Made by a program: the position numbers and the translations under genes
Assembly (NCBI GenBank): GCA_013214905.1
Contig: JABSRV010000010.1
Span: forward strand, 1-47,789
Origin: Psychrobium sp.
GTDB taxonomy: Bacteria > Pseudomonadota > Gammaproteobacteria > Enterobacterales > Psychrobiaceae
DNA length: 47,789 bases
Direction: 5' to 3'
The notes under the pieces: generated by a model
Database searches by the model: none
The model's input: only the letters and a program-made list of their open reading frames with translations
Told to the model about the DNA's origin: nothing
Part shown: one piece after another, positions 2,014-47,269 of the stretch
Layout: the number at the start of each line of letters is the position of its first letter
Position numbering within the stretch: the stretch's first letter is position 1

Positions 2014-3912
2014 ATGAAAATGAATACTGCTTTGGAAAATACGATACTCTTGCATCATTATTTTGAGAAAAATGCAAAGTCAAACCCTGATAATTTAGCT
2101 GTTTCTGATGAATATATAACTCTTTCTTACAAGCAATTGAATAAGAGGGCTAATCAGTTAGCTCGGCTCTTGGTCAGTGAAGGCGTAGATGTCGGAGATC
2201 ATGTTGCTATATTACTCAACAGAACAGCTGATATTATTGTTAGTATGTTGGCAATATTAAAGGCTGGTGGAGCAATAGTCGCCATCGATCCTAAGTACCC
2301 TACCGACCTTGTTAACTATATGCTCGTTGATAGTGAAGCCAAGGTTGTATTATCTTCGACAAAAGTAAAAGATAAGTTTCAGTCAGCAATTGGCGACTTA
2401 GTCTTATGCCTCGATGAAGAATCCACCTTTAAAAAGTTGGCTAAATTACCTGACAATAACTCAATCGAGTTGTCAGGGCCGTTTACTGGCGATGAATTAG
2501 TTTATGTTGTATATACATCAGGCTCTACAGGCAAGCCTAAAGGTGTAAAACTTCCCCATAAATCTATTGTTAATGTATTAGCTGATCAATCGAGAGGTTT
2601 TGATGTTTTAGCATTGCCTCTGAGGTCGTTACAGTATTCCTCCATCAGTTTTGATGTTGCATTCCATGAAATAATTACAGCACTTTATACTGGTGGTAGT
2701 TTATATATTGTAAATGAGGACATGCGAACTGATTTTACTTCATTACTTGAATTCATTTGTAAAAATCGCATCGAGCGAATATTTATGCCTAATCCTGTAT
2801 TACAGGCCTTGGCATTTGCAGCAATTGAAAGTGGCATAAGCCAAGATTTATCATTGAAAGTGATTGTACAATCGGGGGAGCAACTTCGTATGTCGCCTGA
2901 GCTAACATCATTTTTAATGACTACTAATTGCCAACTGATTAATCAATACGGACCGGCAGAAGCCCATGTGGTCTGTTATTACATTAGTGATGAACCTTAT
3001 GATAAGTGGCCTGAATTTCCTCCTATTGGCTCTCATATTATAAAGAATACAAAACTGTATGTACTTGATGGGAATTTAAATGAAGTTGAAAACGGTGAAG
3101 TAGGCGAGTTATTCATTGCTGGTATTGGTCTGGCTAATGGTTACCAAAATAAAACGGAAAAGACCCAATCGCATTTTATTTCGAATCCTTTTTCATTTGA
3201 AGAAAAGTATAACCGACTTTACAAAACAGGCGACCTTGTAATACAAAAAAATAACGGCGTTATAGAGTATGCTGGCCGTTCTGATCATCAAGTCAAGATC
3301 AGAGGGTTTAGAATCGAGCTGTCTGCTATTGAGTCTGTATTATTAAGTTTTAGCTGTGTAAAAAGTACGGTAGTTAGTGCGGTAAAATTACATGAAGGTC
3401 AATCGGAAAAATCTCTAGTCGCTCATGTGGTTACCCATATTCCTGAGCAATCTCTACCCCATGATGAAAATGAATTAATTCATTTATTTAAATCTGCACT
3501 CGGTGAACGTTTACCTGACTTTATGATGCCCAATATCTTTATTTTTATTGACGCGTTACCACTGTCAAATAATGGAAAGGTGAACCGTAAAGCTTTGTCT
3601 ATGCCAACGATGGAGCATCTACTTAGCTCTAATTTTATACCAAGTAATGGTCAATTAGAACAAGAGCTTTTAACTTGCTATGAGACGCTCCTTAGACTTA
3701 AGGAAATAGGTGTTGGCTTGAATTTTCTGGAGCTAGGAGGAAGCTCTTTAAATGCTATGAGGTTAAATAGAACAATAGAAAAGACCTTCAAGTGCAGGGT
3801 TGGGATCCAAGACATAATGACCTTATCTATTCGAGAACTTGCCTTATTGATCAACAATAAAATTGAACAATGTCCAGCACAATCTGAAAAAATCGCTCTC
3901 GAGAAGGTCTAA
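2014..3912 (+). CDS. Free-standing NRPS adenylation-thiolation (A-T) didomain protein
   Basis: The 632-residue protein activates an amino acid as the adenylate and loads it on its own carrier domain. The A domain (about 20-530) shows core motifs YTSGSTGKPKG (A3), FDVAFHEI (A4), NQYGPAEAHV (A5), YKTGDLV (A7), GRSDHQVKIRGFR (A8) and NNGKVNRK (A10). The T domain (about 545-620) has LGGSSL with Ser578 as the phosphopantetheine site. There is no C domain. Aligning by eye to GrsA, I read the pocket as D-V-H-F-V-S-Q-V-V-K; this shares several positions with proline codes (D-V-Q-F-I-A-H-V-V-K), but I would not assign the substrate. It could load the amine used by one of the orphan terminal C domains in the window, or act as a starter. 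The next gene begins 1 bp after its stop. Confidence 0.92.
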   Translation: MKMNTALENTILLHHYFEKNAKSNPDNLAVSDEYITLSYKQLNKRANQLARLLVSEGVDVGDHVAILLNRTADIIVSMLAILKAGGAIVAIDPKYPTDLVNYMLVDSEAKVVLSSTKVKDKFQSAIGDLVLCLDEESTFKKLAKLPDNNSIELSGPFTGDELVYVVYTSGSTGKPKGVKLPHKSIVNVLADQSRGFDVLALPLRSLQYSSISFDVAFHEIITALYTGGSLYIVNEDMRTDFTSLLEFICKNRIERIFMPNPVLQALAFAAIESGISQDLSLKVIVQSGEQLRMSPELTSFLMTTNCQLINQYGPAEAHVVCYYISDEPYDKWPEFPPIGSHIIKNTKLYVLDGNLNEVENGEVGELFIAGIGLANGYQNKTEKTQSHFISNPFSFEEKYNRLYKTGDLVIQKNNGVIEYAGRSDHQVKIRGFRIELSAIESVLLSFSCVKSTVVSAVKLHEGQSEKSLVAHVVTHIPEQSLPHDENELIHLFKSALGERLPDFMMPNIFIFIDALPLSNNGKVNRKALSMPTMEHLLSSNFIPSNGQLEQELLTCYETLLRLKEIGVGLNFLELGGSSLNAMRLNRTIEKTFKCRVGIQDIMTLSIRELALLINNKIEQCPAQSEKIALEKV

Positions 3913-3913: not shown

Positions 3914-4627
3914 ATGACAGATTTAGCAGAGCGGTATCAAACGATTAAAGCAATAATTGAAAGTGCATCTAAGTCTTTTAATAGACCGTTATTACTTGCT
4001 GTTAGTAAGGTTCAACCAATTAAAAAAATGGAGTTTTTACACGAATTTGGTATTAATGATTTTGGTGAAAGTTACCTTCAAGAAGCCTTAATTAAAATAG
4101 AACATTTTAAGAATAAACCGATAAATTGGCACTTTATTGGTCCTATTCAATCCAATAAAACGCGTTTGATCGCCGAAAATTTTGACTGGGTGCATAGTGT
4201 TTGTTCTGTGAAAGTTGCAAAACGCTTAAGTGCTCAGCGACCTGAGTCAATGCCGTCATTAAACATATGTTTGCAGGTTAATATTGATAACGAATCAACA
4301 AAAGCAGGAAAATTACCTGAGGAAGTAAGCTTATTTTTTGATGAAATTAAGGCACTGCCTAATCTGTCTATTAGAGGTTTGATGTGTTTACCTAAAAAAC
4401 GAGAAAATATTGTCGATACATGCGAGAGCTTTAATCGTTTAGCCAAGCTGAAAAATAGCCTATGCGATAAAATGGATACACTTTCAATGGGCATGTCTTC
4501 AGATCTGGAATATGCTATATCGGAAGGTTCAACAATTGTCCGTGTAGGTACCGCTTTATTTGGTACTAGGGGCGATATTGTACCATCAGAATTTAAAGTG
4601 GATGGGTTGAATAATAATGGTTACTAG
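3914..4627 (+). CDS. YggS/PLPBP-family PLP-binding protein
   Basis: Starting at the ATG one base after the upstream stop, this encodes 237 residues of a single-domain alanine-racemase-type barrel. LLAVSKVQP gives Lys32 as the PLP lysine; NDFGESYLQEA, WHFIGPIQSNK, and the C-terminal MGMSSDLEYAI and STIVRVGTALFG are YggS hallmarks. The family handles PLP homeostasis and is not an established racemase, because it lacks the second domain of alanine racemase. Housekeeping yggS is normally near cell-wall or proline genes, so a copy inside an NRPS operon is unusual. It may support the PLP-fold protein at 833 or another PLP step. The longer reading from 3863 overlaps the NRPS gene and is rejected. 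Confidence 0.9.
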   Translation: MTDLAERYQTIKAIIESASKSFNRPLLLAVSKVQPIKKMEFLHEFGINDFGESYLQEALIKIEHFKNKPINWHFIGPIQSNKTRLIAENFDWVHSVCSVKVAKRLSAQRPESMPSLNICLQVNIDNESTKAGKLPEEVSLFFDEIKALPNLSIRGLMCLPKKRENIVDTCESFNRLAKLKNSLCDKMDTLSMGMSSDLEYAISEGSTIVRVGTALFGTRGDIVPSEFKVDGLNNNGY

Positions 4628-5798
4628 AAAAGTTGTAATAACAGGGATGGGAATGACGTCTGCTTTAGGTAATGGAGTCGGAGAGTGTTGGAGTAATTTG
4701 GTAACCGGAAAAAATGGTATCGAGACTATAGAAAGGTTCAAGGTGATTAATAGCATAGTCACTTTTGCAGGTACTAACCCAAAAAATGACGTATGCAAGT
4801 ATCCTAGAGATATTATTGTTAAAATGATGCATGAAGTTATTCAAGAAGCTACTGCCGATGAAAAACTTGAATTTGACGAAATGTACTATAGCTTAACTAA
4901 TGGGATATATGACTGGCCTATTAGGTTAAGAAATTTAGAACAGAAAGTGAAAGAAGATCCTTTTCAAAAGTACTTTCTTGAAAGTGAATTTGCCGATCAA
5001 TTAAGGCAGGAATATAACGTGAATTCAATGCCCACATTTGTGTCGAATGCGTGTGCTGCATCAGCAAAAGCAATTCAGCTAAGCTATCGAAGAATAAAAG
5101 AAGGTCATGCATCGCGTATTCTTGTTGCCGCCTCAGATTGTTGTGTTGCGGGTGAAACAATTGCCCTTTTTGGCCGGCTTTCTGCTCTATCGACTAAAAA
5201 TGCAACATTTACATCTGCGTCCAGCCCATTTAGTGAGCAACGGGATGGGTTTGTGATTGGGGAAGGTGCAGCCTCTTTAATTTTGGAAGACGAAGAACTT
5301 GCTAAATCTCGTGGCGCAACCATTTATGGTTATGTTTTGGGAACTGGAAATACGACAGATAATTATCATAAAACCAAGGGAGATCCTGAAGCGAAGAAAA
5401 TAGTTAATTGTATGAAGAGTGCTCTCGATGATGCCCAAATAAAATTTTCTGACTTAAGTTGTATCCATGCACATGGGACTAGTACTGTGGAAAATGACAA
5501 GATGGAAGTAAAAGCAATTGAACAGTTAGCTGTTGGACATCCTATTAAAGTCACTTCTGTTAAATCTATGATAGGTCACTCACTTTATGCTGCGGGTGTC
5601 ATTAATGCTGTATGTGCACTGCAAAGTATTAATACAGATTTAATTCCTCCCACCATAAACTTTAACGAAAATAGAGATATAGAAAATATCGATATTGTGA
5701 CTGAAAAGGCTATTAATTGGCAGAATTCGATAGTGATGTCAAATTCTTTCGGGTTTGGTGGGCAGAATGTTTCCTTAATATTTGCTAAGGCACGCTAA
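4617..5798 (+). CDS. Beta-ketoacyl-ACP synthase (FabF/KS-alpha type), intact catalytic triad
   Basis: A discrete 393-residue ketosynthase of the FabF class. The nucleophile is Cys146 in SNACAAS; the two histidines are His286 (HAHGTST) and His321 (KSMIGHS); the C-terminal SNSFGFGGQN motif is present. It should perform decarboxylative Claisen condensation on ACP-bound substrates in the cytoplasm. Its start overlaps the yggS-like gene by 11 bp. Downstream in the same operon are an ACP (9115) and a KS-like protein without catalytic residues (9503), which resembles the KS-alpha / chain-length-factor arrangement of type II systems. Whether it extends the salicyl starter or makes an independent acyl chain cannot be told from sequence. 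Confidence 0.9.
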   Translation: MVTRKVVITGMGMTSALGNGVGECWSNLVTGKNGIETIERFKVINSIVTFAGTNPKNDVCKYPRDIIVKMMHEVIQEATADEKLEFDEMYYSLTNGIYDWPIRLRNLEQKVKEDPFQKYFLESEFADQLRQEYNVNSMPTFVSNACAASAKAIQLSYRRIKEGHASRILVAASDCCVAGETIALFGRLSALSTKNATFTSASSPFSEQRDGFVIGEGAASLILEDEELAKSRGATIYGYVLGTGNTTDNYHKTKGDPEAKKIVNCMKSALDDAQIKFSDLSCIHAHGTSTVENDKMEVKAIEQLAVGHPIKVTSVKSMIGHSLYAAGVINAVCALQSINTDLIPPTINFNENRDIENIDIVTEKAINWQNSIVMSNSFGFGGQNVSLIFAKAR

Positions 5799-5826
5799 AA
5801 ATTTAATTTTACTAAGGAAGGTTCTT

Positions 5827-7449
5827 ATGAAGTCAAGTTTTCCAAACAATATTGCTCAAAAGTATATCTCTTTGGGCTATTGGAAGAAAAAAACTCTACC
5901 TGAAAGCTTGTGCGAGTGGGCTGCTCAGCATAAAGATAGAGTAGCACTAGTCGATGGCTCAAAATCATTAAGTTATGAAGCATTGGAAATCCAATCTAAA
6001 AAATTAGCCTATTCCTTTGTTAATGCAGGCCTTAAACCTGATGATAGAGTTGTTGTTCAGCTTGCTAACTCTAATGAATTTATTATCGTTTTATTTGCAT
6101 TAATGAATGCGGGAGTTTTGCCTATACTTGCTTTGCCATTACATAGGTTTAATGAAATTGATGATATAATAAAAGTATCAGGTGCTGTGGGTTATATCTC
6201 TCAATCAAGGTTTGGCGGGTTTGATTATAATAAACTGGCTAAAGACCTAAAGAAGAATAATAAAACATTAGAAAAAATATTTTTCACAACATCAAATAGT
6301 GATTTTCAAGCACTTGATTCACTTGATAATAGGCTAACAAAGCTACCAACTATTGTTTTTGATGAGATAGCACTTTTTCTTTTATCAGGAGGAACTACTA
6401 GCTCCCCAAAACTCATTCCTCGAACACATACCGATTACTTATATAATCTTGAAACAATGGCCACAAAATGTGGTATGGATGAAAATTCAAAATTTCTTGC
6501 TGCAATCCCTGTATCTCATAATTTTGCGTTGGCCTGCCCAGGTGCCTTGGGAGTATTAGCTTCTGGTGGAACTGTTGTCTTTGAAAAACATCCTGATCCA
6601 CTTGAAATATTGGAAAAAATTGATACTCACCAAATTACGCATCTTGCCTTAGTACCGATTTTAGCTGATCTTATTTGTATTGCGGCAAATGAAATAGACG
6701 AATTTGATTTAAGTAGCTTAGAACTTGTTCAAGTGGGAGGAGCACGGTTTACAGCGGAATCAGCTAAAAGGCTTCTGGTTTCAATTGGTTGTAATTTGCA
6801 ACAGGTTTTTGGCATGGCAGAAGGATTACTTTGCTGCACATTGCTTGATGACGATGATGAAATAAAAATAACTTCGCAAGGGAGGCCTATTTCACCCCAT
6901 GATGAAATCCTTATTCTTCAAGCTAATGGACTGCCGGTTAAAGAAGGTGAAGTTGGTGAACTTTATACTCGCGGGCCCTATACACTGAGGGCATATTTTA
7001 ATGCAGGGCATCATAATGAAACTGCTTTTACAGATCAGGGATTTTATCGAACAGGTGATTTGGTAAAATGCACATTTGAAGGAAACCTTATTGTTGCAGG
7101 TCGGGTAAAGGAATTAATTAATCGTGGTGGTGAAAAATTTTCACCACTTGATGTAGAGAATCACTTGATCCAACATGATCACATTATGGAAAATATATTA
7201 GTTTCTGTGCCTGACGATACCTTAGGCGAACGAACTATATTATTCGTGAAAGTCGATAATTGTGATATTAATCGAGCCGACGTTATTTCCTTTCTTAAAG
7301 GCAAGGATGTACCTGCATATAAATATCCTGATGACGTTGTAGTTTTAACACAATTACCTCTTACTAGTGTAGGTAAAATTGACAAACTAAAGCTTCTGGA
7401 AAATTACCAATATAGTAAAAGGAATAGTGACTGTGTCAACGAGTTTTAA
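5827..7449 (+). CDS. Salicylate-AMP ligase (EntE/DhbE/YbtE-type stand-alone aryl-acid adenylation enzyme)
   Basis: This 540-residue enzyme activates an aryl acid as acyl-AMP and transfers it to an aryl carrier protein. It carries the family signature HNFALACPG (231-239), the P-loop SGGTTSSPKLIPRTH, QQVFGMAEGL (325-334), YRTGDLV, NRGGEKFSP and a C-terminal SVGKIDK lysine. In DhbE numbering, Ser240 and Val337 mark 2,3-dihydroxybenzoate use, and Cys and Leu mark salicylate. Here the matching residues are Cys237 and most likely Leu335, both salicylate-like. The next gene is a salicylate synthase, which agrees. I start it at the ATG at 5827 behind AAGGAAGG rather than 5782, because the earlier start would overlap the KS gene. 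Confidence 0.92.
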   Translation: MKSSFPNNIAQKYISLGYWKKKTLPESLCEWAAQHKDRVALVDGSKSLSYEALEIQSKKLAYSFVNAGLKPDDRVVVQLANSNEFIIVLFALMNAGVLPILALPLHRFNEIDDIIKVSGAVGYISQSRFGGFDYNKLAKDLKKNNKTLEKIFFTTSNSDFQALDSLDNRLTKLPTIVFDEIALFLLSGGTTSSPKLIPRTHTDYLYNLETMATKCGMDENSKFLAAIPVSHNFALACPGALGVLASGGTVVFEKHPDPLEILEKIDTHQITHLALVPILADLICIAANEIDEFDLSSLELVQVGGARFTAESAKRLLVSIGCNLQQVFGMAEGLLCCTLLDDDDEIKITSQGRPISPHDEILILQANGLPVKEGEVGELYTRGPYTLRAYFNAGHHNETAFTDQGFYRTGDLVKCTFEGNLIVAGRVKELINRGGEKFSPLDVENHLIQHDHIMENILVSVPDDTLGERTILFVKVDNCDINRADVISFLKGKDVPAYKYPDDVVVLTQLPLTSVGKIDKLKLLENYQYSKRNSDCVNEF

Positions 7450-8785
7450 AATTGAAATGGAAAGCAGGGTAATAAAACCAATTCACTTGGCTGAGAGAAT
7501 TACGAAGTTGTTACTTTGTGGTTCAGATTTTTTTCTCTATGAAAAAGGTGAAAAATGTTTCCTAGGCCTAGGTGTTAACGCAAAAATCAGTGCAGACACC
7601 TCAGGAACCGTTATTTATTCAAGCTCCATTGACGAACAAAAATTTTCTGGAAAACGTATTTCATTACTTATTCAGGAAGCTATTGAATATATGAATGTTG
7701 ATGACTGGCGTCTTCATGGCTTGGTTTATTTTGATTTATCAATTTTAATTCATCAGTTAGATGTAAATTATAGTAACCACCAACCTGCATTTGAATTTAT
7801 TTTACCTAAAATCGATATTGAGATCAGTAAGACATTAATAACGATTAAAATAGCGGATGAAAATGAATTTGATTCATCTCAAATTAAAGAAAAAATACAG
7901 GCTCTATTAAATGATGTTACTTTTACTGAGTTAGATAAATATCAGCCTCAAAAAGACACGAGAGAGATTGATATAACGTCAGATACAAATTACCAAAAAC
8001 ATGTTAAAGATGCTGTGGAGTGTATTTCTAACAATGACTTTCTTAAGGTTATATTGTCTAGACGTGTTTATATTCCATTTAAGGTTGATCTTTTAGAAAG
8101 TTTTGGCCGTGCAAGAAAGAATAATACACCGGCTCGTTCATTTATTTATCAGTTAGATAATCGTGCAGCTTTTGGACTTAGTCCTGAAACTGTTGTAGAG
8201 GTATCAAGCGAGGGGGTTGTCAGTACGCAGCCTTTAGCAGGAACTCGTAGTTTGGGAGAAACGCCAGAAGAAGAAGCAAGGTTAAAAGCTGAATTATTGA
8301 GTGACTCTAAAGAAATTGCTGAACACGCCATATCAGTGAAATTAGCTGTGGAAGAAATGGAAAGTATATGTAATCAATCATCGGTCGCAGTTAGTGAATT
8401 TATGAATGTGAAACGCCGTGGTAGTGTACAGCATATTGCATCTCGTGTTGTTGGGCAACTTCAAGAAGAACGTTGTTCTTGGGATGCTTTAATAGCGCTT
8501 TTCCCTGCGATTACAGCTTCTGGGATATCTAAGAAAAAATCTATTCAGTATATCTATGATATGGAACCATATAATCGAGGTTTGTATAGCGGAGCGTCTA
8601 TTCTTGCAGATAGTACAGGCATGTTAGATGCAGCTTTAGTTATTCGAACTCTATTTAAAGAAGGGGATGATTATTGGTTACAAGCTGGTGCAGGCATAGT
8701 TAAAGAATCTCGATTTGAACGTGAGTTTGAAGAAACTTGTGAAAAGCTAAGTGCCATCTCAAAGTTTGTAATCGAAGCAGCATAA
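7427..8785 (+). CDS. Salicylate synthase, MbtI/Irp9 family
   Basis: This 452-residue chorismate-utilising enzyme should convert chorismate through isochorismate to salicylate plus pyruvate. It follows MbtI closely: KVILSRR with Lys207 (MbtI Lys205), NTPARSF, LSPE with Glu254 (MbtI Glu252), PLAGTRSLG, SKEIAEHAISV, RRGSVQHIASRV, FPAITASGISKK, NRGLYSGA and EREFEETCEKLS. Plain isochorismate synthases need a separate lyase; none is present and none is required for this family. It starts with GTG at 7427 behind an AAAAGG, overlapping the ligase gene by 23 bp, so the two are translationally coupled. Together they make and activate the aryl starter. Confidence 0.93.
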   Translation: MTVSTSFKIEMESRVIKPIHLAERITKLLLCGSDFFLYEKGEKCFLGLGVNAKISADTSGTVIYSSSIDEQKFSGKRISLLIQEAIEYMNVDDWRLHGLVYFDLSILIHQLDVNYSNHQPAFEFILPKIDIEISKTLITIKIADENEFDSSQIKEKIQALLNDVTFTELDKYQPQKDTREIDITSDTNYQKHVKDAVECISNNDFLKVILSRRVYIPFKVDLLESFGRARKNNTPARSFIYQLDNRAAFGLSPETVVEVSSEGVVSTQPLAGTRSLGETPEEEARLKAELLSDSKEIAEHAISVKLAVEEMESICNQSSVAVSEFMNVKRRGSVQHIASRVVGQLQEERCSWDALIALFPAITASGISKKKSIQYIYDMEPYNRGLYSGASILADSTGMLDAALVIRTLFKEGDDYWLQAGAGIVKESRFEREFEETCEKLSAISKFVIEAA

Positions 8786-8797: not shown

Positions 8798-9070
8798 ATG
8801 TCAGAACAAAACCTATCGCTACAATCGCATGGCTGTGAAAGTAGCGTATTTGAAAAACTGGAAAAAATTTGGAAAGAAGTATTGTCTATTGAGTTTATTG
8901 AACCAGAAATAGGTTTCTTTGAAGCAGGGGGGAATTCGATTTACGCAATGAAGATTTGCATAGCTATTAAAAAAGTCTTTGGTATTACTGTTAAAGCGAA
9001 CGAATTTGAGTCATCCCCCAGTTTAGTAGACTTAGTTGAAAAATTAAAACTAAAATTGAGCGATGTGTAG
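8798..9070 (+). CDS. Free-standing carrier protein (probable aryl/peptidyl carrier)
   Basis: A 90-residue single carrier domain with FFEAGGNSIYAMKI, Ser47 being the phosphopantetheine site. The GGNS type is closer to NRPS T domains than to fatty-acid ACPs. Lying 12 bp after the salicylate synthase gene, it is the natural acceptor of salicylate from the ligase at 5827. This assignment rests on position and type, not on a diagnostic residue. Confidence 0.88.
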   Translation: MSEQNLSLQSHGCESSVFEKLEKIWKEVLSIEFIEPEIGFFEAGGNSIYAMKICIAIKKVFGITVKANEFESSPSLVDLVEKLKLKLSDV

Positions 9071-9114: not shown

Positions 9115-9426
9115 ATGTCAGTAATAGAGTCCGTTAGCAGAGAAGAAATATTTAAATATGTTGAAAGTGCAATTTTTGAACGTATTGATATTGAAGATTT
9201 AGGTATTTCAGCGATAAGTGAAGATGATGCACTCATCGCAACACTTGGTTTAGATAGTGTAGATTTTTTGGAAGTAGTATTTGATATTGAAGAACGATAT
9301 GAGATAAGCATCCCGATTGAAGATTGGCAAGGACAAGCGGAAGGAAAAGAGGAAAATCATGCTGTCGATAATTTTGTAATGTCAACTTTTGTAGATAATA
9401 TTCAAAGTTTAGTCAATGAAAAGTAA
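9115..9426 (+). CDS. Free-standing acyl carrier protein (type II ACP)
   Basis: A 103-residue ACP with LGLDSVDFLEVVFDIEERYEI; Ser48 in the DSVD motif is the phosphopantetheine site and the helix after it is acidic, as in type II FAS/PKS ACPs. It has a C-terminal extension (about 85-103) beyond a normal ACP. It lies between the aryl carrier and the KS-like gene and is the expected partner of the ketosynthase at 4617. A conserved-looking GKEENHAVDNFV segment links the core to the tail; its role is unknown. Confidence 0.88.
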   Translation: MSVIESVSREEIFKYVESAIFERIDIEDLGISAISEDDALIATLGLDSVDFLEVVFDIEERYEISIPIEDWQGQAEGKEENHAVDNFVMSTFVDNIQSLVNEK

Positions 9427-9502: not shown

Positions 9503-10528
9503 ATGTTTAATATTCAGTATAGCGCGGCCATTATTGGGATCGGAAGTATTTCTAATTTAGGGGTAAAGCAAGGAAGGGAAGGAGGTGATAAGAGTTTACA
9601 TAAATTGAAGGCTAGGACAGATATTATCAGTCCTGTAGAGTTTTCATTAGATCGTTATGTGCCTAAAAAGAAAGAACAAAGATCCATGTCTCAAAGCCAA
9701 GCTATGGCTGTTTATGCGGCAGGCTTAGCGATAGAGAATGCTGGAGTGTTAAACGATTTAGAAGTTTGTAATGACCTACGTCTTTTACTTTCATGTTCTA
9801 TTGGTGAAAGAGATGAGCGTGTTGATGTCAATATTTTGAAAAATCGACATGAGCAAAATTTTTGCCTTAATAGTGAATTAAGAAAGATGAGGCCTACAAC
9901 TATTCTACAACGTTTACCAAGTTTGTTCTTGGCCAATGTTTCTATGGCATTTGATTTAAATGGTGAGACAGTTTCCTATGTTGGGGAAACCTCGGCTGCA
10001 ATTGCAAGCTTAAAGTATGCATTGAGTACTGTTAGCTCGAGTAATACGGGCAGAACATTAGTTGGCGGTGTCTTTAATGGCCAACAGCCAATTTACCATG
10101 AAATGGTTGGACATAATAAAAATTTTCCAAAGTATCAAGAGTTAGTCTTTGGTTCTGCTGCTACTTTTACCATTTTGAAAAATGTTGACCAGGCTAGACA
10201 AGAAGGGACTTGTGTTTCAGAACTGAGGTATTGGGGAGAATTCGTAAAAGACGATATTGCGAAGGTACTTAAGAGTGTTAACGCTAAGTTGATCTCTATT
10301 ATGCATGAACTCACCAACACGAGTAGTTTATTGAATGATCTAATAGCGTTGGATATGGATTTATTTAACGTTAATGATTACGTCGGTAATTTATTTGAGG
10401 CTTCTACTCACACTCAAATTATGCTGACACTTAGTTATTATAATACATCCTTAATTCAGGGAAGTGAGGCCTTTATATTGAGTGAAAATATTAGCGGTCG
10501 CTTTAATATATTTAGCTTAATTCATTAG
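9503..10528 (+). CDS. Degenerate ketosynthase homologue, chain-length-factor-like
   Basis: The 341-residue protein has the thiolase-fold N-terminal pattern of KS proteins (SAAIIGIGSISNLG; SMSQSQAMAVYAAGLAIENAG). The nucleophile region reads VGETSAAIAS (160-169) where KS enzymes have DTACSSS-type sequence, so no cysteine is present. Near the C terminus GNLFEAS stands where GHxxEA-type sequence would carry the second histidine, and no HGTxT motif is seen. It is therefore unlikely to condense anything alone. Pairing with the intact KS at 4617, as CLF does with KS-alpha or the KS-like subunits of aryl-polyene clusters, is the simplest role. It is shorter than a full KS (about 400) and could also be decaying. 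Confidence 0.65.
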   Translation: MFNIQYSAAIIGIGSISNLGVKQGREGGDKSLHKLKARTDIISPVEFSLDRYVPKKKEQRSMSQSQAMAVYAAGLAIENAGVLNDLEVCNDLRLLLSCSIGERDERVDVNILKNRHEQNFCLNSELRKMRPTTILQRLPSLFLANVSMAFDLNGETVSYVGETSAAIASLKYALSTVSSSNTGRTLVGGVFNGQQPIYHEMVGHNKNFPKYQELVFGSAATFTILKNVDQARQEGTCVSELRYWGEFVKDDIAKVLKSVNAKLISIMHELTNTSSLLNDLIALDMDLFNVNDYVGNLFEASTHTQIMLTLSYYNTSLIQGSEAFILSENISGRFNIFSLIH

Positions 10529-10855: not shown

Positions 10856-12148
10856 ATGTTAGTAGACAGTGAAATAAAATTACCAGCATTAGAACTTACG
10901 GGGGTAGATCTCCTCTGTGAGTCTTGGTCAGATTATGTGATGGTATATGATTATGTCATTGACCAAGATGAATTATGCCAAAGTTTAAAAAAGGCACTAA
11001 ATAGAAACCCATATTTTGGTGGTCGTAAGCTATGTGGTGCCGACGGAAAAGGTTATATTTCGTCAGATGGAGGGGCATCCATTGAATTTCATCACGAAAA
11101 TACTGAACTCCCTGATGATTATGTAGAATTTGATCAAGATGATGATCATCTATTTTGTGATCGCTCAAATAGAAAAAAACATAGAGCATCAAGAACAAGT
11201 TTAAAAGTTGCACTCTTTCAAATCAAAGTGACAACATTTAAAAACGCTACTGTGATGGGATTTAGTGTTTGGCATAGTCTTGCCGATGGTACAACATTTT
11301 TTGATTTTATTAATGCTTGGACAAGTATTCATCGCGATGTTGAAGTACCCGATATCAATTTTGATCGTATAGAACGAGATTTAACTCATGTTGATTCGGA
11401 TTTTAGTAACAGTTTGAAAAAGATAAGTTTCTATACAGATAAGGAAAAAAAAATTAAGCCAATGCAGGAGCAAACGTTTGTTTTAACTAGTACTCAACAA
11501 AAACAAATATTTGCATTAAATAACCCGCATCAAACAGTAATGAATGTTGATATTTTACCCGCGTTTGTATGGAAGCTTATTCTTGGTTCATTATCAGCAT
11601 CGAACATGTTAACCGCGTCTCTTTATTCTGTTTATGATGTTCGTCCTCTTGTAGGGGTGTGTGACAACTATGTTGGCAATTTACTTTATTATCCAAATGT
11701 AACGGTCAATCGCTCAGAAGTTGACAATTTATCTGTTGAAAGTATTGCTGAATCAATTAGAGAAAGTGCATATGAACTGTTAGATGAGGCAGATTTTATT
11801 TTGGATGAAATTGTATGGTTATCTAAACATGTCACGTCATTAAATAAGAGTCAATTTATTCATGGTACTTTGGGAAGCGCTATTTATGAGGATGCCGTTA
11901 TTTACAATAATTTATCGAGTTTGCCATTAAGTCGGATGGATTTCGGTAATGGTGCACCATCTTATATTGATTGTCCTCTTGCTGAAGACGTGAAAGATGC
12001 TCGTTTTATTACTGTATTTTCTCTGCCGTCAAATGAAAATGATTTAATGGTTAAAGTTAATTTAACCGTAGAAGAAATGAAAATATTTGAAAAATCATAT
12101 CATGCTTATATACAGGATCTTTGTCAAGAAGTGGAACCTTGTATCTAG
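10856..12148 (+). CDS. BAHD-family (PF02458-type) acyltransferase
   Basis: The 430-residue protein carries the HxxxDG catalytic motif as HSLADG (140-145; His140 general base). It also has the two features separating BAHD enzymes from NRPS C domains: the DVRP...NYVGN stretch (261-274) and DFGNG (362-366), the equivalent of plant DFGWG. BAHD enzymes move an acyl group from a CoA thioester to an alcohol or amine; these are abundant in plants and fungi and uncommon in bacterial clusters. Here it could esterify a hydroxyl, for example of Thr or the salicyl ring, or accept an acyl-ACP made by the nearby KS. Donor and acceptor are unknown. It may be the first gene of its own transcript, given the 327-bp gap before it. 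Confidence 0.82.
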   Translation: MLVDSEIKLPALELTGVDLLCESWSDYVMVYDYVIDQDELCQSLKKALNRNPYFGGRKLCGADGKGYISSDGGASIEFHHENTELPDDYVEFDQDDDHLFCDRSNRKKHRASRTSLKVALFQIKVTTFKNATVMGFSVWHSLADGTTFFDFINAWTSIHRDVEVPDINFDRIERDLTHVDSDFSNSLKKISFYTDKEKKIKPMQEQTFVLTSTQQKQIFALNNPHQTVMNVDILPAFVWKLILGSLSASNMLTASLYSVYDVRPLVGVCDNYVGNLLYYPNVTVNRSEVDNLSVESIAESIRESAYELLDEADFILDEIVWLSKHVTSLNKSQFIHGTLGSAIYEDAVIYNNLSSLPLSRMDFGNGAPSYIDCPLAEDVKDARFITVFSLPSNENDLMVKVNLTVEEMKIFEKSYHAYIQDLCQEVEPCI

Positions 12149-12228: not shown

Positions 12229-13080
12229 GTGAATGGTAATATGGAGAAATTTGTTTTGGATATCAGTAGAACCCCAGAGAGTATCACTTACATATCTAGG
12301 AAGACGAACGCACAATATAGCAAGCATCTGTCTGAAGACTGGCATGGAGGCGATAGATTTAAAACAATATTAATGAATGCTATTTCGTTTTTATTACCGA
12401 GTGGAGAAAAACTTCTTATTGATGTGATCAATAATAACCTTAAGAACATTAACGATGAGAAGTTACTACGTGAGTGCAAATGGTTTATTCGTCAAGAGGT
12501 AAATCATTCAGCAGAGCACATTCGTTATAACAATTCGCTGTGCGATAGCCGTGGTTATGACTATGAAAAATTGCAGTTAGAGTCTCATATTAATAGAAAC
12601 TCATACAAGGTAGTAAAGAGAGCTCTTGGAGAGCAATATTGTTTAGCAATGACCGCGTGTATTGAACACTTAAATTCAATAGCTGGGGAGTTAATGTTAA
12701 CTGATAAACGTTGGTTTTCGGGCATGCCAATAGAAATGATAGATTTTTGGGAATGGCACTCTATTGAAGAAATTGAACACAAAGCGGTTTGTTTTGATGT
12801 TTATTTATCTATTTATGGAGAACGTGAACTACTGCATAAAGTTATGCGATATTCAGCGCAGCAACTAGGCCATACTATTTTAAGTATTGCGTGCAATATG
12901 TATCAAATGGAAGGGCACCCGAAAGAAGAAATAGAGACTTGGATAACCCAATCAGAATTTATGGCGGGCGAAAACGGTATATTAAAAACAATCGAACGTA
13001 AGATTTCTCCTTTTTATGATTTCAATTTTCACCCTTGGGACAATGATAATAGTGAGTTGTTAGCTAAATTCACTACTTAG
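12229..13080 (+). CDS. PF10118-type putative metal-dependent hydrolase / ferritin-like metalloprotein
   Basis: A 283-residue protein resembling the predicted metal-dependent hydrolase family: RQEVNHSAEH (Glu90, His93, His97), a central CIEHLNSIAGE (Glu146, His147) and FWEWHSIEEIEHKAVCFDVY (His177 and nearby Glu/His). The repeated Glu and ExxH placements on predicted helices look like a carboxylate-bridged dimetal site, so an oxidase role is as possible as hydrolysis; this is inference. It starts with GTG at 12229 because AAAAGGAAG at 12211-12219 is correctly spaced for it and too far from the ATG at 12241. It sits between the acyltransferase and the first giant synthetase. Confidence 0.7.
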   Translation: MNGNMEKFVLDISRTPESITYISRKTNAQYSKHLSEDWHGGDRFKTILMNAISFLLPSGEKLLIDVINNNLKNINDEKLLRECKWFIRQEVNHSAEHIRYNNSLCDSRGYDYEKLQLESHINRNSYKVVKRALGEQYCLAMTACIEHLNSIAGELMLTDKRWFSGMPIEMIDFWEWHSIEEIEHKAVCFDVYLSIYGERELLHKVMRYSAQQLGHTILSIACNMYQMEGHPKEEIETWITQSEFMAGENGILKTIERKISPFYDFNFHPWDNDNSELLAKFTT

Positions 13081-13197: not shown

Positions 13198-16100
13198 GTG
13201 GAAAATGAGAATAAATCAACAAATGAAGAAATTGCGATTATTGGTGTTTCAGGGCGGTTTCCTAATTCGACTAATGTAAGTGAATTTTGGACTAATTTGA
13301 AAGATGGCACAGATTGCGTGTCTAAAATACCAGGAAATCGCTGGGATCACTCCAAGTTTTGCTCTAACGCTAAGGAAGATGGGTATGATATAGAGTGCAA
13401 ATGGGGGGGATTTGTTGACGGTGTTGACTTATTTGATCCACAGTTCTTTGATATGCCGTTAGCGTTAGCACCCTTACACGACCCTAATGAACGACTTTTT
13501 TTAGAAACAGTTTGGAATTTATTAGAAAGTGCCGGTTATCCACGTAAATTGATTGATAGTGAATATAACGCCAATGTTGGTTTATTTCTGGGATTAACTC
13601 GTCAAGAATATCATTACTTTGCGTCAGATAGCTTTGAGAAAGCTGCTATGTCAGGACTTTCGCATGCTGCGGTAGCCAATAGAGTTTCTCATTTTTTTAA
13701 TTTTAAGGGACCTTCAGTAGCTATTGATACATTATGTTCGTCATCGCTTACTGCAATTGATCGTGCTTGTAATAGCCTCTTAAATAGCGAATGCCAGCTA
13801 GCCGTTGCAGGTGGTATAAATCTTTCGTTACATCCAGCTAAGTATTTGTTACTTACGCAAGGACAAATGCTTGGAGATGACCCTGAACAACGCAGTTTTG
13901 GTCAAGGTAAAGGGTATATACCCGCCGAGGCTATCGGGGCCGTCCTATTAAAAAGAGTCTCAGACGCAAAACGTGATGGCGATAAAATCTATGCGGTAAT
14001 TAAATCCAGTAATGCTATACACGGAGGAACGACTAATTGGCTATTTTCGCCAAACCAAACCTCCATTAGCAATTTGGTTAATAAAACGTTAGCTGATGCA
14101 AATGTAGCCCCTGAATCTATTGGATATATAGAGGCTTCGGCGAATGGCTCTCCCTTAGCTGATAAAGCCGAGTTTGATGCGTTATCTAAATCATTTAGAT
14201 TGTATTCTGAAGACACTGCTATTTGTCCTATAGGGTCTGTAAAGTCGAATATTGGTCACCCCGAAGCTGCCTCTGGTATATGTCAGCTTATAAAAGTTGT
14301 ATTACAACTTCAACACAAAACAATTGTACCCAGCATTAAAGTCGATGCGCCGAATCCAAAATTAAGATTAGCTAAATCACCATTTTATTTACAAAATCAG
14401 TTGTCACAATGGAAAGTCAGACAAACAGAGCAAGGAGACCTTCCTCGTCGTGCGCTTATTACCTCAATTGGTGCTGGTGGAAGTAACGCGTGTTTAGTCT
14501 GTGAGGAATATCAGTCAATGGAATCGTATAGGATGCCTTCATCTGAGTTTCAAACTCAGTCAGTTTGGGTGTTTTCTGCACGTTCTGAAATGGCTTTGTA
14601 TTCCATCGCACAAAATGTACATGATTATTTAATACAGAAACAACAAGACCTGACTAAAAGTGAACACCTAGGTTTCCTTTGTTCTTTGGCTTATACATTG
14701 CAAACTCGTCGAGAAGAGATGGTATTACGTTTTGCTTTTGTGGCCAAGACAATGGAGGATGTTATTAAGTCTATTCATCAGTTTTTACAGCAAAAAACTA
14801 AACAAAATATAACGTATTTACCTGTTGGTGATGTCAGAGAACTAACGAAAGAACAGAGAAAATTATTATTAGGGCAAGTGGGTCGAAGCTTAGCAGAAGG
14901 TTATCTTGAAGCAGAACAATATGGTGAGTTGGCGAAACATTGGAGCCAAGGTGGTAGTGTGGATTGGGTAAGTTGTTACCCTAAAAAGTTAGAGGTTATT
15001 CAAGACTTGCCTAACTACCCATTTGATAAAAGTCGATTTTGGTTATCAGGCTCTGGTAATATTTTTAGTAATGATTTCATAAATAATAAGCAAGTAGCGG
15101 CTAGTTCAAGTAATGTTGACTATAGCTATGATGATATTTCTCGATTGGTACTTGAAAGTATTACCAATGAAATTGGTGGGGCTTATGAGGGGCTATCACT
15201 TGCACAGTCTTTGCTAGAGCTAGGAATGAACTCTATAAGTGGTGTCAGGCTGTTAAGGCAAGTAGAGATACAATTTCACATTAAAATTAGTATTAAAGAG
15301 ATGTTTTTGGCTTCAACGACTAATGGGTTAATTCTCCTTGTTCAACAAAAGTTGCAGCATCAAAACTCTGAAGAAAGTATTCAACGAAAAACGTTTGCTT
15401 TTCTACCCTTTAACCCAAATGAAAAAAAATTCCCTTTGTCTGAAGGACAAAAAGCATTATGGCTTGACTACACGCTAGACCCTAACTCCGAAGCTTATTT
15501 GATCCCAATTGCAATGAAATCTAAAAATGACATCAGTGATGTCATTCTGAAAAAAGTGGTTGACGAGTTAGTGAAAATTTATCCAACCCTTTGCACGTAT
15601 TTTTATGAAGATAAAACTGAGGTGTTTCAAGGAATATCTGATGATATATACAAAGGTGCAAGTGATTTATGTTTTGTGAGTAAAGTCTATAAAATTGAAG
15701 ATAAGTTACTTGAGTCCGAGTTGAGCCAACAGTTGTTTTTACCAATGAACTTAACAAATGAACCCTTATTTAAAGTGGTTCATTACAGTAATAAGCAGTC
15801 ACACGTTTTAGGTTTAACTGTGCATCATATTATTGCGGATGGTCTTTCAGTATCATATTTACTCAGTACTTTTGTTGAACTATACCAACAATTTTCTAAG
15901 AACGAAGTTAATGTAATAGAGCCTTCAAAGTATCAATTTAATGCGTTTGTTGAATGGGAACAGCAATATTTAACGTCACCAGAAGCCAAAGGTGATTATG
16001 ATTATTGGCAACAATTGTTAAAGGACATAAAACAGCCTGTTCATTTGACCGATATTTTTAAAGCAAGCTCAGATCCGCAATCAATAAGCAATCGGAATTT

Positions 16101-19100
16101 AGCGTTCACATTAAAAAAAGACATATCTGCTCGACTTAAACAAAGAGCAATTAGTCAACAGCTTAACATGTCAGTTGTATTTCTTGGCCTATATCAAATA
16201 TTGTTGCATAAATATACAGACGCAAATGATATTGCGATAGGTATGCCTGTACTGGGCCGCTCAGAAGAATCATTTAGTCATATGCTAGGAAATTTCGCGA
16301 ATATTATCTTAGTTAGAAGTCAGTTAGCTGCCCATACGGGCTTAAATGAATCACTTGATGCTTTGAAAAACCAGCTATTAGAGAGCATTGAACATGCGAA
16401 CTATCCATTTCATTGCTTGAATAATCAGTTCAAAGATAATAATAAAGGTGCTCTTAGCCCTTATATTGATGTAACTTTTGCGTTTCAAAATTTTATTGAT
16501 GGTGAAAGTATCACTCTCTTTCAAAATAATGAAGAACTAACTCTTGAGTTTATTGAACAGGTTTCTCAAAGTGGTAATGTAAGTTTTGGACTTGAAGTTA
16601 TTGAAGTTTCAGATGAATTTATACTTAAATTAAAATTTCAAGGAAATCAAGCAGACGTAGCTAAAGTTGATCGGTTCGTGCAAAGCTATGTCTACCTGAT
16701 AGAGCAATATCTTGAGCAAGAAGAATGCTTTATAGCTAAATTACAAGTGTTGAGAAAGCATGAAAGTGCCGCATTAATCACCCCAAGAAAAGCTTATAAG
16801 TCTAATGTGCTATTGCATGAAAAGTTTTCCCAGCAAGTAGAAGCTTTTGGCGACAAGCATGCGTTAACTCATAATGGTAACTCGCTGACTTATAAAATGC
16901 TGGATAAAAAAGCAAATCAGTTAGCTAACTATATACAAAAAGAAGGGGTAACAGTAAATACATTAGTGGGGGTAGGAATTGAGCGCTCTACTGATTTGAT
17001 TATTGCTATTTTAGCCATATTAAAAGCGGGCGGCGCTTATGTACCTTTAGATCCAAGGTATCCTAACTCTCGACTAAATTACATTATAGATGATGCTCAG
17101 TTGGAGTACTTACTTATCACGACAGATGAAACTGATATTTTTTCCGATATTCAAATTGAAAATATCATCATCATTAATGAAGTGAATACCGCGCTTGAAC
17201 ACTCTGTACTTGTGCCTAGTTGCCGTGATAGCCAAGACTGCAATGATCTTGCTTATATTATTTATACATCAGGAACAACAGGTTACCCAAAAGGAGTTAT
17301 GCAAACGCACAAGAATGCCTTACGTCTGTTTTTGAGTACTGAAGAAGAGTTTGCTTTTAATAGTCAAGATGTGTGGCTACTTTTTCATTCAATTTCGTTT
17401 GATTTTAGTGTGTGGGAATTATGGGGGGCACTGCTGCATGGTGGTCGCCTTGTTATACCAAGTTATGAGTGCACACGTGACCCTAAACAGGTTGTAAACC
17501 TGTGTGTAAATGAACAAGTCACTGTATTAAATCAAACGCCAAGTAGTTTTTCTAGTTTTGCTAATCAAGCGATTGCAGTTGATGCGCAACTGCCATCGTT
17601 GCGTTACGTCATTTTTGGTGGTGAAGCTATACAGATGAATGCATTGTTATCTTGGTGGACACATTACGGGGAAAATGAGACGACACTGATAAATATGTAC
17701 GGTATAACCGAAACGACAGTGCATGTAACAATTAAAAAGCTTAGTCGCGATATGGGTAATATATCTGTGATAGGTAGTCCTCTTATGGATCAATCAATTT
17801 ATTTACTTGATCAGCACCTTAATTTTGTACCACACGGTGCTATTGGTGAAATTTATGTTGGCGGCGCTGGCTTGGCGATCGGATACCTTAATCAAGCTGA
17901 ATTAACGGCAGAAAGGTTTATTTCTAGTCCGTTTGACGTTGGTATGCGCTTGTATAAGTCAGGCGACTTGGCGCGACAATTACCTAATTTAGAGTTTGAA
18001 TATATTGGGCGATCAGATAACCAAGTTAAAATTAGAGGCTTTAGAGTTGAATTAGGCGAAGTAGAGCAACAAATACTAAAACATCCGGGTGTTAAATCAA
18101 GCCTTATATCTGTCTATCAAAAAGAAGGTATGCCCGCTCAGTTGGTCGCATATATAATGCCTAATAATGAACTTGATGAACATAATCTTGTTAACTCACT
18201 TAGACAGTTTGTAGGTGAGCAGTTACCAGTACATATGATCCCTGCTTATTTTTGTATAGTAAGCAGCTGGCCAATTAATGAAAATGGAAAAATTGATAAG
18301 GCGCGATTACCAACGCCGAAAATAACTAGTGCTGGCGTTGAAACTGTTGCGCCAACAACTAAAAATGAAACCATCTTAGTTGGTGCCTTACAGGAAGTGC
18401 TTAATGTAGAAAAAGTGGGGATAGAAGATAACTTTTATGCCTTGGGTGGTGACTCGCTTCGTGCATTATCGTTTGTTGCTTCCTGTAAGTCATTCGGACT
18501 TAATTTTAGTGTCAGTGAGGTATTTAAGTATCCGACGATAAAGTCTTTGGCGTATGCCATTGAGACAGAACCTGCTGAATTATTAGAATTAGTGCAAGTG
18601 GATGAGTTTTCTTTAATTAGTGCTGATGAACGTAAGAAGTTAATGTCATTTGAGCTTGAAGATGCTTACCCACTTACCATGTTACAACAAGGTATGGTGC
18701 TACATAACCTCAAAGAGTCGGCAAAAGGGCTCTATCACGATGTGTTTAGCTTTCGTATTGAAGCTGGATGGCAAGAACGTGAATTCTTTGAGGCAATGGT
18801 CCAATTGATACAAAGGCACACTTCTTTACGTAGTTTGTTGTGGCAAGGTGGAACGCGTCCATTACAGTTGGTTTTCCGAGAGGCGGTACCACAACTCACT
18901 GTTATTGACTTACGTGGAGCGTCGGAAATAGAGCAGTCAGATATAGTTTCTCTTTGGATTGAAGAAGAAAAACACTCTGAGTTTGATTTCACTAAACTAC
19001 TTTGGCGTATAGTTGTTCACCGCTTAAGCGATTCTGAATTTTACTACCATATCAGTTTTCATCATGCATTTTGGGATGGATGGAGTATCGCATCACTTAA

Positions 19101-21879: not shown

Positions 21880-24800
21880 GTATTTCAGCGCTAATCAGAA
21901 AGTCAGCAGATCATGGTGTTCTATTATACCTTGAAGGTGATAACTTAAAGTTCAAATTAACAGTAAAATTGTTCCCTGCGGAATTAAAGAAAGAAATCTT
22001 AATAAACAAGCCGGAAATCATAGACTTTTTAACGTTTCAATCAAATGGAACTGACGTGCCAATTACCGATATTCCAGTATTGACAGAGCGAAAAAACCTT
22101 CTTGCATCATTTGCTCAGCAACGTTTATGGTTCATTGATAAGCTACGTGGAGGCTCTTCTGAGTATAATATGCCAATCGCCTTTAATGTTGTGGGGCAAT
22201 TGGATTTATCGATACTTAATCGTGTTTTTAATACGATTGTAGAGCGTCATGAAGTACTCAGAACTGTGCTTATTGAGCGTGGAGATACGCTTGAACAAGA
22301 TATTCGTTCAAAGCAACAATATTCATTTAAAGTTAATGTTATTGACCTAACCGAATACTTAGAAGCTACACAAAATCAATTAATTGAGAAATTAGTTCAA
22401 GAAGATTCAACTAAACCGTTTAATTTGGCCAAGGATTTGATGCTACGTGTTAGCTACCTGAAAACAGCAAAAGCGTCTGGTGTGTTGTTATTTAATATGC
22501 ATCATATAGCTTCTGATGGTTGGTCTATGCAAGTGTTAACGAAAGAATTTTTATCACTATATACCGCATATTCGGCTAACGAAGCTCCCTCCCTTGAAAA
22601 GCTAGAGGTTCAGTATGCTGATTATGCTCATTGGCAACGTTCTCGTTTGTCTGATAAGCAGTTTGAATCACAGATTGACTATTGGAAAGAAACTCTCTTA
22701 GACATTGAACCATTGCATCTGCTGCCATTAAAGAGAACCCGGCCAGAACAAAAGGGGAGTCGAGGGAAAATAGTCAAAGGAAACATTCCTCTGCAAATAA
22801 ACGAACGTTTATCTGCCTTGGCACTTCAGCACAGATTAACTCCGTTCATGCTTTTTCACGGAGCTCTGAGTCTTGTACTTTCAAAGTACAGCAATAGTTA
22901 TGATGTGGTTATTGGTACTGCGAACGCAAATAGATTATCAAATCAGTTATCGCCACTCATCGGATTTTTTGTTAATACCATTGTATTGCGCTTGAATACG
23001 AAAAATAGGTTACTGAATGAATATTTACAAGACATTAGAGAGGTGCATCTAGGCGCACAAGTCAACCAAGATGTGCCTTTTGATAAAATTGTTGAGTCAT
23101 TACAGGTGCCTCGTTCAAATTCTTATACGCCATTGACGCAAATAATGATGACGATGCAGTCTGATTTCACTGGTGATAAGAAAACGACTGGATTAAAAGA
23201 GCTCTCTTTGCCAAATGTGAGTTTAACACCCTTATTTTCTAAGGAAACTAATACCAAGTTTGATTTAGAAATAGACTTTAAATTAACTTCGTCTGAAATG
23301 GTTATAAATTGGACGTATGATGTTGATTTATTTTCTGAATCTTTTATTTGTCAATTAAACAAAAGCTTAGAAAATATTCTACTTTCTTTATCTGAAATCG
23401 CTCACGAAAGTGATATTTGTATCAATGATATTCCCTTTTTGAGCTCGAATGAAAGTGAATATTTAATTACCGGTATGAATCAGTCCTTCACGGATTACCC
23501 GCGGGAACAATGTATTCATACGTTATTTGAGTCAATGGTTCAGCAGTCTCCTGATGCGATTGCTGCCGTATTTCAAGAGAGGAAAATTAGTTATGGCGAG
23601 CTTAATCAAAAAGCTAATCAGTTATCCCATTATTTGATCGAACATCACAAAATTACACCAGATTCACTCGTTGGGGTCGGTATAGAAAGGTCGATTGAGC
23701 TAATCATTGCAGTATTAGCGATATTAAAAGCTGGAGGAGCATACGTACCTTTAGATCCCAAGTACCCGGCAGATACGTTAAAATATCTTTTAGAAGATAG
23801 CCAAGTTACTGTTATTCTGACTCAAAAACACATTGATGGGGTGTTGAAAGATTGTAATAGAAAGAAAGTATTCATTGACGATATATTAATTGATGCGGAC
23901 GGGCATGAGTATAGCCATTATCCCCAAAATAACCCGGCAGGTTATTTCGGTAGCACTAAATCAAGTAATTTAGCTTACATGATATACACATCTGGTACTA
24001 CAGCGAAGCCAAAAGGGGTCATGGTTGAGCATAAGAGTCTTGTAAATACGGTGTTAGATAATTCTGCTACATTTAACATTTCGCCAGATAGTGTTATCTA
24101 TCAGGCAACATCTTTTAATTTTGATGCGGCGACTTGGGTGATGTTCATGGCCTTAACGCGAGGAGCGCAAATTAGGTTTGCGTCAAGCATAGATTTTGTT
24201 GCTGATTTTGAAAAGTATCAGGATGTCACTCATCTGATGATGACACCTTCGATGTTACAAGGGATTAATCCTGAGACGTTACCTAAGCTTCAAAATATTA
24301 TCGTTGGTGGTGAAGTATGCTCCCCTTCTTTGCTTGATACTTGGAATTTACCTGATATTTCATTCTTTAATGCTTATGGGCCTACTGAAACAGCCATATG
24401 TAGCACGATAGCAAAAATTGGGAAAAATGAGAGGATTTCTTTAGGGAAGCGGATAAGTAATACTCAATTGTTTATTTTGGGGCAAGAACAGGAATTATTA
24501 CCATTTGGAGCGAAAGGTGAATTATATATAGGTGGTGTAGGTTTAGCGCGTGGATATTTGAATCTGGATGAATTGACCAGGCAGTGTTTCATTCATAGTC
24601 CTTATTATCGAGCTAGCGACCCGAATTCATCTTCACATTTATATCGAACTGGTGACATAGTTCGCTATTGTGAAGATGGTCAATTGGAATATATAGGTCG
24701 AACAGATGAACAGGTGAAAGTAAGGGGGTTTCGTGTCGAAATTTCAGCGATTGAAAGTCAATTAAATGAATTTGACATCCTTGATAGTTCTGTTGTTATC

Positions 24801-29874: not shown

Positions 29875-30846
29875 ATGATAAAAAATAATTTATTACAAAG
29901 TTGGGAAGAACGTTACCAGTTACCTTCTTTTCCAAAAGGCTGGTATGCAGTTGCGTGGGAAACGCATATTAATGAGAAGGATATTATCAATGTTAATTTA
30001 TGTGGACAAAAGCTTGTTGTCTTTAAAACGGAGTCGGGTGAAGTTTCAGTCTTAAGCGCTCATTGTCCGCATTTAGGTGCGCACCTAGGGTATGGAGGTG
30101 TGGTGGAAAAAGACAGAATTAGATGTCCTTTTCATTCATGGGAATTTGGTACATGTGGAAAGTGTGTCAAGACCCCTTTTATTAATAAACCGGTTAAGGC
30201 TACTGTTCGTAAATGGTATCACCAAGTCGCAAATGGCATGCTCCTTGTTTGGTATTCACAAGATAAAAAGGAACCTGACTGGTTTGTTGATGAAGTAGAT
30301 ACAGCAGGTTGGACTCTGCCAATTTTCCATGAAGAGAATACGTGGAGACTCAGAACACACATTCAAGAGGTTGCAGAGAATGGTGTTGATACACATCATT
30401 TTGTCAGTGTTCACAACGCGCAAGAACCGGGAACTTTGGCTAATGTTGATTTTTCGACGCATGTTGGAAAGTGGGTCTCTCATAGTAATACTCTGATGAT
30501 GGGAGAACAAGTAAGCGTGGTAGCGACACTAGCTTTGCAAGGGCTTGGGGTTGAACATGTTTACGTTAACATACCAGAAAAGTCATTAGAATTTAGAACA
30601 TATATATACATTACCCCAGTAGATAAAGAGTATATCGATATACGAATGGCTATTTCAGTTAAGTGCACGGGAAGAGAAGGAAAAGACAAAACACTTCTCC
30701 GTATTTTAACGCCGAAGCTAACCAATGAAATAAAGCAAGACTTTGATATTTGGGAGCATAAGATATATCACGAGAAACCAAGGCTGAGTCCCACAGACGG
30801 ACCTATTCATGCTCTTAGATGCTGGGCGAATCAGTTCTACGAATGA
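29875..30846 (+). CDS. Rieske [2Fe-2S] non-heme iron oxygenase
   Basis: A 323-residue terminal oxygenase. Rieske ligands are Cys64/His66 (CPH) and Cys84/His87 (CPFH). The catalytic iron site is ENGVDTHHFVSVH: Asp172 is the bridging residue and His175 and His180 the ligands, with a late Asp (289 or 291, in KQDFDIWEH) as the third ligand. The layout resembles KshA-type monooxygenases rather than ring-hydroxylating dioxygenase alpha subunits, and no beta subunit is encoded. No dedicated ferredoxin or reductase lies in the window, so it would borrow electron transfer partners. It is 37 bp after the second synthetase and probably hydroxylates, desaturates or cyclises the peptide or a building block. 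Confidence 0.9.
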   Translation: MIKNNLLQSWEERYQLPSFPKGWYAVAWETHINEKDIINVNLCGQKLVVFKTESGEVSVLSAHCPHLGAHLGYGGVVEKDRIRCPFHSWEFGTCGKCVKTPFINKPVKATVRKWYHQVANGMLLVWYSQDKKEPDWFVDEVDTAGWTLPIFHEENTWRLRTHIQEVAENGVDTHHFVSVHNAQEPGTLANVDFSTHVGKWVSHSNTLMMGEQVSVVATLALQGLGVEHVYVNIPEKSLEFRTYIYITPVDKEYIDIRMAISVKCTGREGKDKTLLRILTPKLTNEIKQDFDIWEHKIYHEKPRLSPTDGPIHALRCWANQFYE

Positions 30847-37200: not shown

Positions 37201-37380
37201 AAACGGCTCCAAACGTTTGTTTATACTGAAAAATGATTGATTTGTGTGTTAAAAATAATATTCATGTTGTGCGAGTTTATGGGTTGAAAGAGGTAACCTT
37301 TGATTAGTATAAACCACATGCGGTTTGTGGAATGGACATCAGCCACGATTCAATTTCTAATAATACGCTAAGGCGATGTG

Positions 37381-45999: not shown

Positions 46000-46054
46000 G
46001 CTCCAATACCAATGAACCCGCACCTATATAGCTATAATAAGGATAATACACTTT

Positions 46055-47266: not shown

Positions 47267-47269
47267 ACA

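Follow-up and report, generated by a model that had tools for sequence, protein, structure and literature searches.

The open reading frame at positions 10856 to 12148 on the + strand of a gammaproteobacterial contig encodes what its sequence identifies as a real, rare, and very divergent member of the BAHD acyltransferases, a family documented chiefly in plants and fungi and usually discussed as an innovation of the green lineage and the fungi. The window analyzed here is that contig at its complete length of 47,789 bases. We propose, with a probability of about 0.75, that the protein is a genuine, catalytically equipped BAHD that would act in the surrounding cluster, which combines salicylate, ketosynthase (KS)/CLF, and NRPS genes, as an acyltransferase for tailoring or for building blocks. 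Its family, its intact HxxxDG motif, and its cluster context are directly visible in the sequence; its activity, pathway role, acceptor, and donor are inferred. The protein is a new member of a known enzyme family, and the finding is that of a rare, divergent representative of such a family in an unusual gammaproteobacterial cluster. If functional, a bacterial BAHD would widen the family beyond the green lineage and fungi, and would allow acceptance of carrier-protein donors by the BAHD fold to be tested in a compact system. In the open-access literature, to which our search was confined with subscription papers falling outside it, we found no paper on a bacterial BAHD in a natural-product cluster.

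Family assignment and nearest relatives

The frame starts with ATG, is open over its full length of 430 amino acids, and lies exactly where the earlier note had placed it. Against all of Pfam (E ≤ 10), the sole family recovered is PF02458 (Transferase), at 85.3 bits (E 4.6e-24) versus a curated cut-off of 22.7 bits, which puts the assignment far beyond chance; we consider membership in the BAHD family sound. Searches of NCBIfam and PHROGs with the same protein returned no match. The three motifs from which the family had originally been read are all present and are arranged in the usual BAHD order: HSLADG, a version of HxxxDG with its catalytic-position histidine at H140, occupies residues 140 to 145 of 430 (approximately positions 11273 to 11290); DVRP at residue 261 is followed by GN at 274 to 275; and DFGNG, a variant of DFGWG with Trp replaced by Asn, occupies residues 362 to 366 (approximately positions 11939 to 11953). 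A review of the family describes HxxxD as absolutely conserved in BAHDs and DFGWG as variable in some plant members (PMC10585174). Structure prediction, for which the only input was a two-sequence alignment, gave a mean pLDDT of 32 and a pTM of 0.27, values too low to define a fold or to serve for a fold search.

A rival reading is that the protein is a free-standing NRPS condensation (C) domain, or a member of another acyltransferase family, misread as a BAHD. These proteins do belong to the same wide superfamily, and a profile comparison of the BAHD protein with the C domains of the window aligned 114 columns around HxxxDG with a probability of 69%, a match of the kind that remote relatives within a superfamily should show. 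PF00668 (condensation), however, is not listed for the protein at E ≤ 10, nor is any other rival to the 85 bits of PF02458, whereas PF00668 gives 156 to 332 bits for the eight C domains found elsewhere on the contig. All eight of these have HHxxxDG, while the BAHD protein has WHSLADG, with Trp in place of the first His, and its DFGNG and DVRP...GN are features of BAHDs. Such a misreading is hence exceedingly improbable, and the distinction from C domains drawn in the earlier note is upheld: the profile check it had suggested was run, and neither a C domain nor another acyltransferase family outranked PF02458.

Within the PDB, the closest matches of the BAHD protein in phmmer searches are plant BAHDs, with beta-ODAP synthetase (BOS; 6zbs) the best at 29 bits (E 4e-6), along with hydroxycinnamoyl transferases (HCT; 5kjv and 4g0b; 28.6 bits to plant HCT). 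A two-sequence profile searched against the same database placed EPS1 (6wao) and vinorine synthase (2bgh) on top, and no matches to fungal enzymes were found. Like the BAHD protein, these plant enzymes (HCT, vinorine synthase, EPS1, and BOS) are of the PF02458 type, carry HxxxDG, D-R...GN, and a C-terminal DFGxG, and measure about 430 amino acids, but their single-sequence similarity to it amounts to only about 25 to 30 bits. They also differ in having DFGWG rather than DFGNG, in the residue before this motif, which is Arg in HCT (WVRLPIHDADFGWG) and Ser here, and in lacking the bacterial NRPS context in which the present protein is set. For scale, when a plant HCT fragment is the query, CER2-type proteins score 27 to 31 bits and a monolignol transferase scores 37 bits; the BAHD protein is thus roughly as distant from HCT as are the most divergent BAHDs of plants.

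The surrounding biosynthetic genes

All genes of the cluster are on the + strand, where the BAHD gene is one of a run of biosynthetic genes. In order, those upstream encode a PLP enzyme, an adenylation-thiolation (A-T) didomain (2014 to 3912; PF00501 and PF00550), a YggS-like protein, a FabF1XL-type KS with Cys and His intact (4617 to 5798), an aryl (salicylate/DHB-type) AMP ligase (5782 to 7449; TIGR02275 at 556 bits, under its cut-off, and about 42% identical to YbtE), a salicylate synthase (7427 to 8785; TIGR03494 at 433.6 bits, above the cut-off of 325), a PCP/ArCP-like carrier protein with the motif GGNS (8798 to 9070; PF00550 at 43 bits), which is probably the salicylate carrier, an AcpXL-like ACP (9115 to 9426), and a degenerate, CLF-like KS of the FabF2XL type (9503 to 10528). 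The “neighboring ACP” of the earlier note is thus real, but there are two such genes (8798 to 9070 and 9115 to 9426), and both are separated from the BAHD gene by the degenerate KS gene. A distance of 327 nt lies between the BAHD gene and the gene upstream of it, and the two may or may not be cotranscribed.

Directly 3′ of the BAHD gene is one encoding a PF10118 protein (“predicted metal-dependent hydrolase”; 12229 to 13080; E 9e-59). Further downstream, Pfam domains and motifs define a hybrid megasynthase with the architecture KS-T-C-A-T-C-A-T (13198 to 21879), and Pfam domains an NRPS with the architecture C-A-T-C-A-T-C (21876 to 29837). These are followed by a Rieske oxygenase (29875 to 30846; PF00355 and PF19298), an MFS transporter, a type II thioesterase (33442 to 34206; PF00975), a NodU-type O-carbamoyltransferase (34545 to 36107; PF16861 and PF02543), and a phosphopantetheinyl transferase (36267 to 37007; PF17837 and PF01648). 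The domain content of the megasynthase and NRPS bears out the claim that the BAHD gene resides in an NRPS cluster. The A-domain codes, read from an alignment to a GrsA fragment, include DFWNIGMVHK, the usual Thr code. A plasmid tblastn search and GTDB contig scans turned up no related cluster that includes a BAHD gene, so that comparison lends no support to membership of the BAHD protein in this pathway.

Three of the upstream proteins, among them an ACP of a type not expected here, are related to the rhizobial set for very-long-chain fatty acid synthesis. The top NCBIfam matches of the ACP at 9115, the KS at 4617, and the degenerate KS at 9503 are, respectively, PRK06508 (44.8 bits; cut-off 83), PRK06501 (332.6 bits), and PRK06519 (112 bits), all under the equivalog cut-offs, and we regard the three as homologs, rather than proven equivalents, of rhizobial AcpXL, FabF1XL, and FabF2XL. 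Compared with the proteins in the corresponding positions in S. meliloti, the ACP shows 38% identity over 61 amino acids, the KS 36% (and 40% to the L031 KS), and the degenerate KS 26%. In the last of these, the catalytic Cys is replaced by Glu, a substitution also present in S. meliloti FabF2XL. It aligns to FabF2XL only up to about residue 238 to 268, its C-terminal part being divergent or shortened, and no KS tail was seen in other frames at 9503 to 10528. The S. meliloti match of the degenerate KS in tblastn lies in the gene order ACP-FabZ-KS-KS-dehydrogenase-lipid A acyltransferase, the layout of the acpXL-lpxXL cluster for very-long-chain fatty acid synthesis (PMC11901934), and two KS genes of this kind are also adjacent in a small gammaproteobacterial MAG. 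The cluster around the BAHD gene resembles the rhizobial acpXL-fabZXL-fabF2XL-fabF1XL-adh-lpxXL cluster in encoding AcpXL-, FabF1XL-, and FabF2XL-like proteins, but is without FabZ, the dehydrogenase, and LpxXL (Pfam scans of the window recovered no gene for FabZXL or LpxXL). Further, the genes here are dispersed in an NRPS cluster, and the rhizobial acyltransferase belongs to a family other than that of the BAHD protein. Another parallel is offered by the type II PKS-like pair AmcF/AmcG of cispentacin biosynthesis (PMC10698177), which similarly joins a KS to a degenerate partner in a biosynthetic cluster that also encodes an adenylating enzyme and a free ACP; however, the KS at 4617 matches AmcF at 208 bits, under both the cut-off of 325 and its own PRK06501 score, and the remaining cispentacin genes were not seen in this cluster.

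Proposed role and possible acyl donors

The BAHD protein would most likely act in tailoring, by O- or N-acylating the product of the cluster, a hybrid peptide natural product. The sole match to PF02458, the plant BAHDs as nearest structures in the PDB, the BAHD-like order of the motifs, and the same-strand biosynthetic run all favor this explanation; the low similarity to characterized BAHDs (29 bits at best in phmmer), the failure of structure prediction to yield a fold, the alteration in DFGNG, the long upstream gap, and the lack of related BAHD-containing clusters in the searches above count against it. In known BAHDs, the motif histidine acts as a general base on a hydroxyl or amine, with an acyl thioester, namely, that of CoA, as the donor (PMC10585174). 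By analogy, the acceptor would lose a proton from a hydroxyl or amine to His140 of HSLADG and then attack the acyl thioester, with an ester or amide as the product. A candidate acceptor would be, for example, the hydroxyl of a Thr-type residue introduced by the module whose code is DFWNIGMVHK. By family precedent, acyl-CoA would be the default donor, the alternatives being a chain on the AcpXL-like ACP or a salicyl unit on the ArCP; the AcpXL-type context thereby supplies a concrete candidate for an ACP-bound donor besides CoA. Any chain on this ACP would have two possible outlets. One is the KS that opens the first megasynthase (13198 to 15120), in which Cys and the second His are retained but EAHGTGT is changed to EASANGS; with the His of HGTGT missing, this entry KS is probably non-elongating and would simply hand the chain on. 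The other is the BAHD enzyme. The former outlet requires no new biochemistry, and the latter is the novel reading.

One possibility within this explanation is that the ACP at 9115, loaded by the KS at 4617 and the degenerate KS at 9503, hands its acyl group straight to the BAHD protein, which would then stand in the place of rhizobial lpxXL, with a peptide hydroxyl or amine as the acceptor. The homology of these three proteins to the products of acpXL, fabF1XL, and fabF2XL, the lipid A acyltransferase gene that ends the S. meliloti cluster and is missing here, and the adjacency of the BAHD and degenerate KS genes are consistent with such a role. However, known BAHDs use CoA thioesters (PMC10585174), an ACP-bound chain could leave just as well through the probably non-elongating KS that opens the NRPS, no FabZ or free-standing KR for fatty-chain synthesis was seen nearby, and the ACP scores under the cut-off of its family; we therefore hold this donor to be rather unlikely. 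No more probable, and likewise differing from the preferred explanation in the donor alone, is that the protein transfers a salicyl or other aryl group from salicyl-ArCP or salicyl-CoA in the manner of the plant BAHDs that use aroyl-CoA: the cluster does encode a salicylate synthase, an aryl-AMP ligase, and a free carrier protein, but its KS or C domains could equally admit the salicyl unit, and no feature of the BAHD sequence indicates an aryl donor. Finally, the protein might be a degenerate, non-transferase relative with an accessory role or none, as suspected for the plant CER2 clade. Its altered DFGNG and its 28.6 bits to HCT, as low as the values for CER2-type proteins, would fit such a state, but the intact HxxxDG, the full-length open frame, and the variation of DFGWG known within the family (PMC10585174) make it improbable, less so only than a misread C domain.

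Distribution and origin of the contig

The rarity of such enzymes, which the earlier note asserted for bacterial clusters, is borne out in the Pseudomonadota sampled. The host genome has a single copy of PF02458, and the family is found in one of the nine genomes from the genus (the other eight having no match), in 1 of 295 from the order, and, counting only scores above the cut-off, in 2 of 369 from the class and 1 of 398 from the phylum; these samples overlap, comprise about 1,000 Pseudomonadota genomes, and each include the genome of the window itself. Only two proteins in these approximately 1,000 genomes exceed the threshold, the BAHD protein and one (L002/L006; JAPLRL010000042.1) from a gammaproteobacterial MAG from Lake Pavin. 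The latter was also the one relative (24% identical) recovered in a scan of contigs from GTDB species. It is 24 to 25% identical to the BAHD protein and like it has H-x-x-x-D intact, but its motifs are the variants HALGDA and DFGIK, and it is encoded between housekeeping-type genes, with no biosynthetic cluster. A scan of the order to which this MAG belongs yielded no further real member of PF02458, and the BAHD protein had no match in a plasmid collection (tblastn) or among IMG/VR viral contigs. The scans for relatives rely on conserved peptides or span the Pseudomonadota only, and bacterial BAHDs may exist beyond them. The present gene may be of bacterial or of eukaryotic ancestry. Two weaker matches fell under the PF02458 cut-off and were set aside: a class-level match that reads as a WS/DGAT-type protein with HHALVDG (L003) and a region inside a 2817-amino-acid frame that resembles part of an NRPS (L004). 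The single genomic copy and its absence from genus-mates are in keeping with a cluster gene rather than a housekeeping gene.

As the window is more than twice as long as any of the eight other sampled contigs of the bin (at most 22,216 bases) and departs from their average GC, we considered misbinning. GC is about 0.36 over 1 to 37.3 kb and 0.46 beyond, versus 0.38 to 0.44 in the sampled contigs; tetranucleotide correlation gave no clear signal, and a 16S search in the bin found none. Against misbinning, an IS982-family transposase fragment at the contig end (79 to 624) shares 93% identity with a copy from a genus-mate, whereas in the best rows IS982-family elements in plasmids of other bacteria reach only 66 to 69%. 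On account of this link, the contig is probably in the correct bin and probably carries an acquired island. A eukaryotic contaminant is ruled out, as the genes on either side of the BAHD gene are bacterial, biosynthetic, and matched to it in GC. The step in GC (0.36 to 0.46) near 37.3 kb coincides with the start of a second gene set (37300 to 47789), which encodes A-T-C and C-A-T-C NRPS proteins, a RipC-like lyase, a PRK07505 alpha-oxoamine synthase-like enzyme, and a RipB-like hydratase; this jump may reflect either two clusters or a mosaic.
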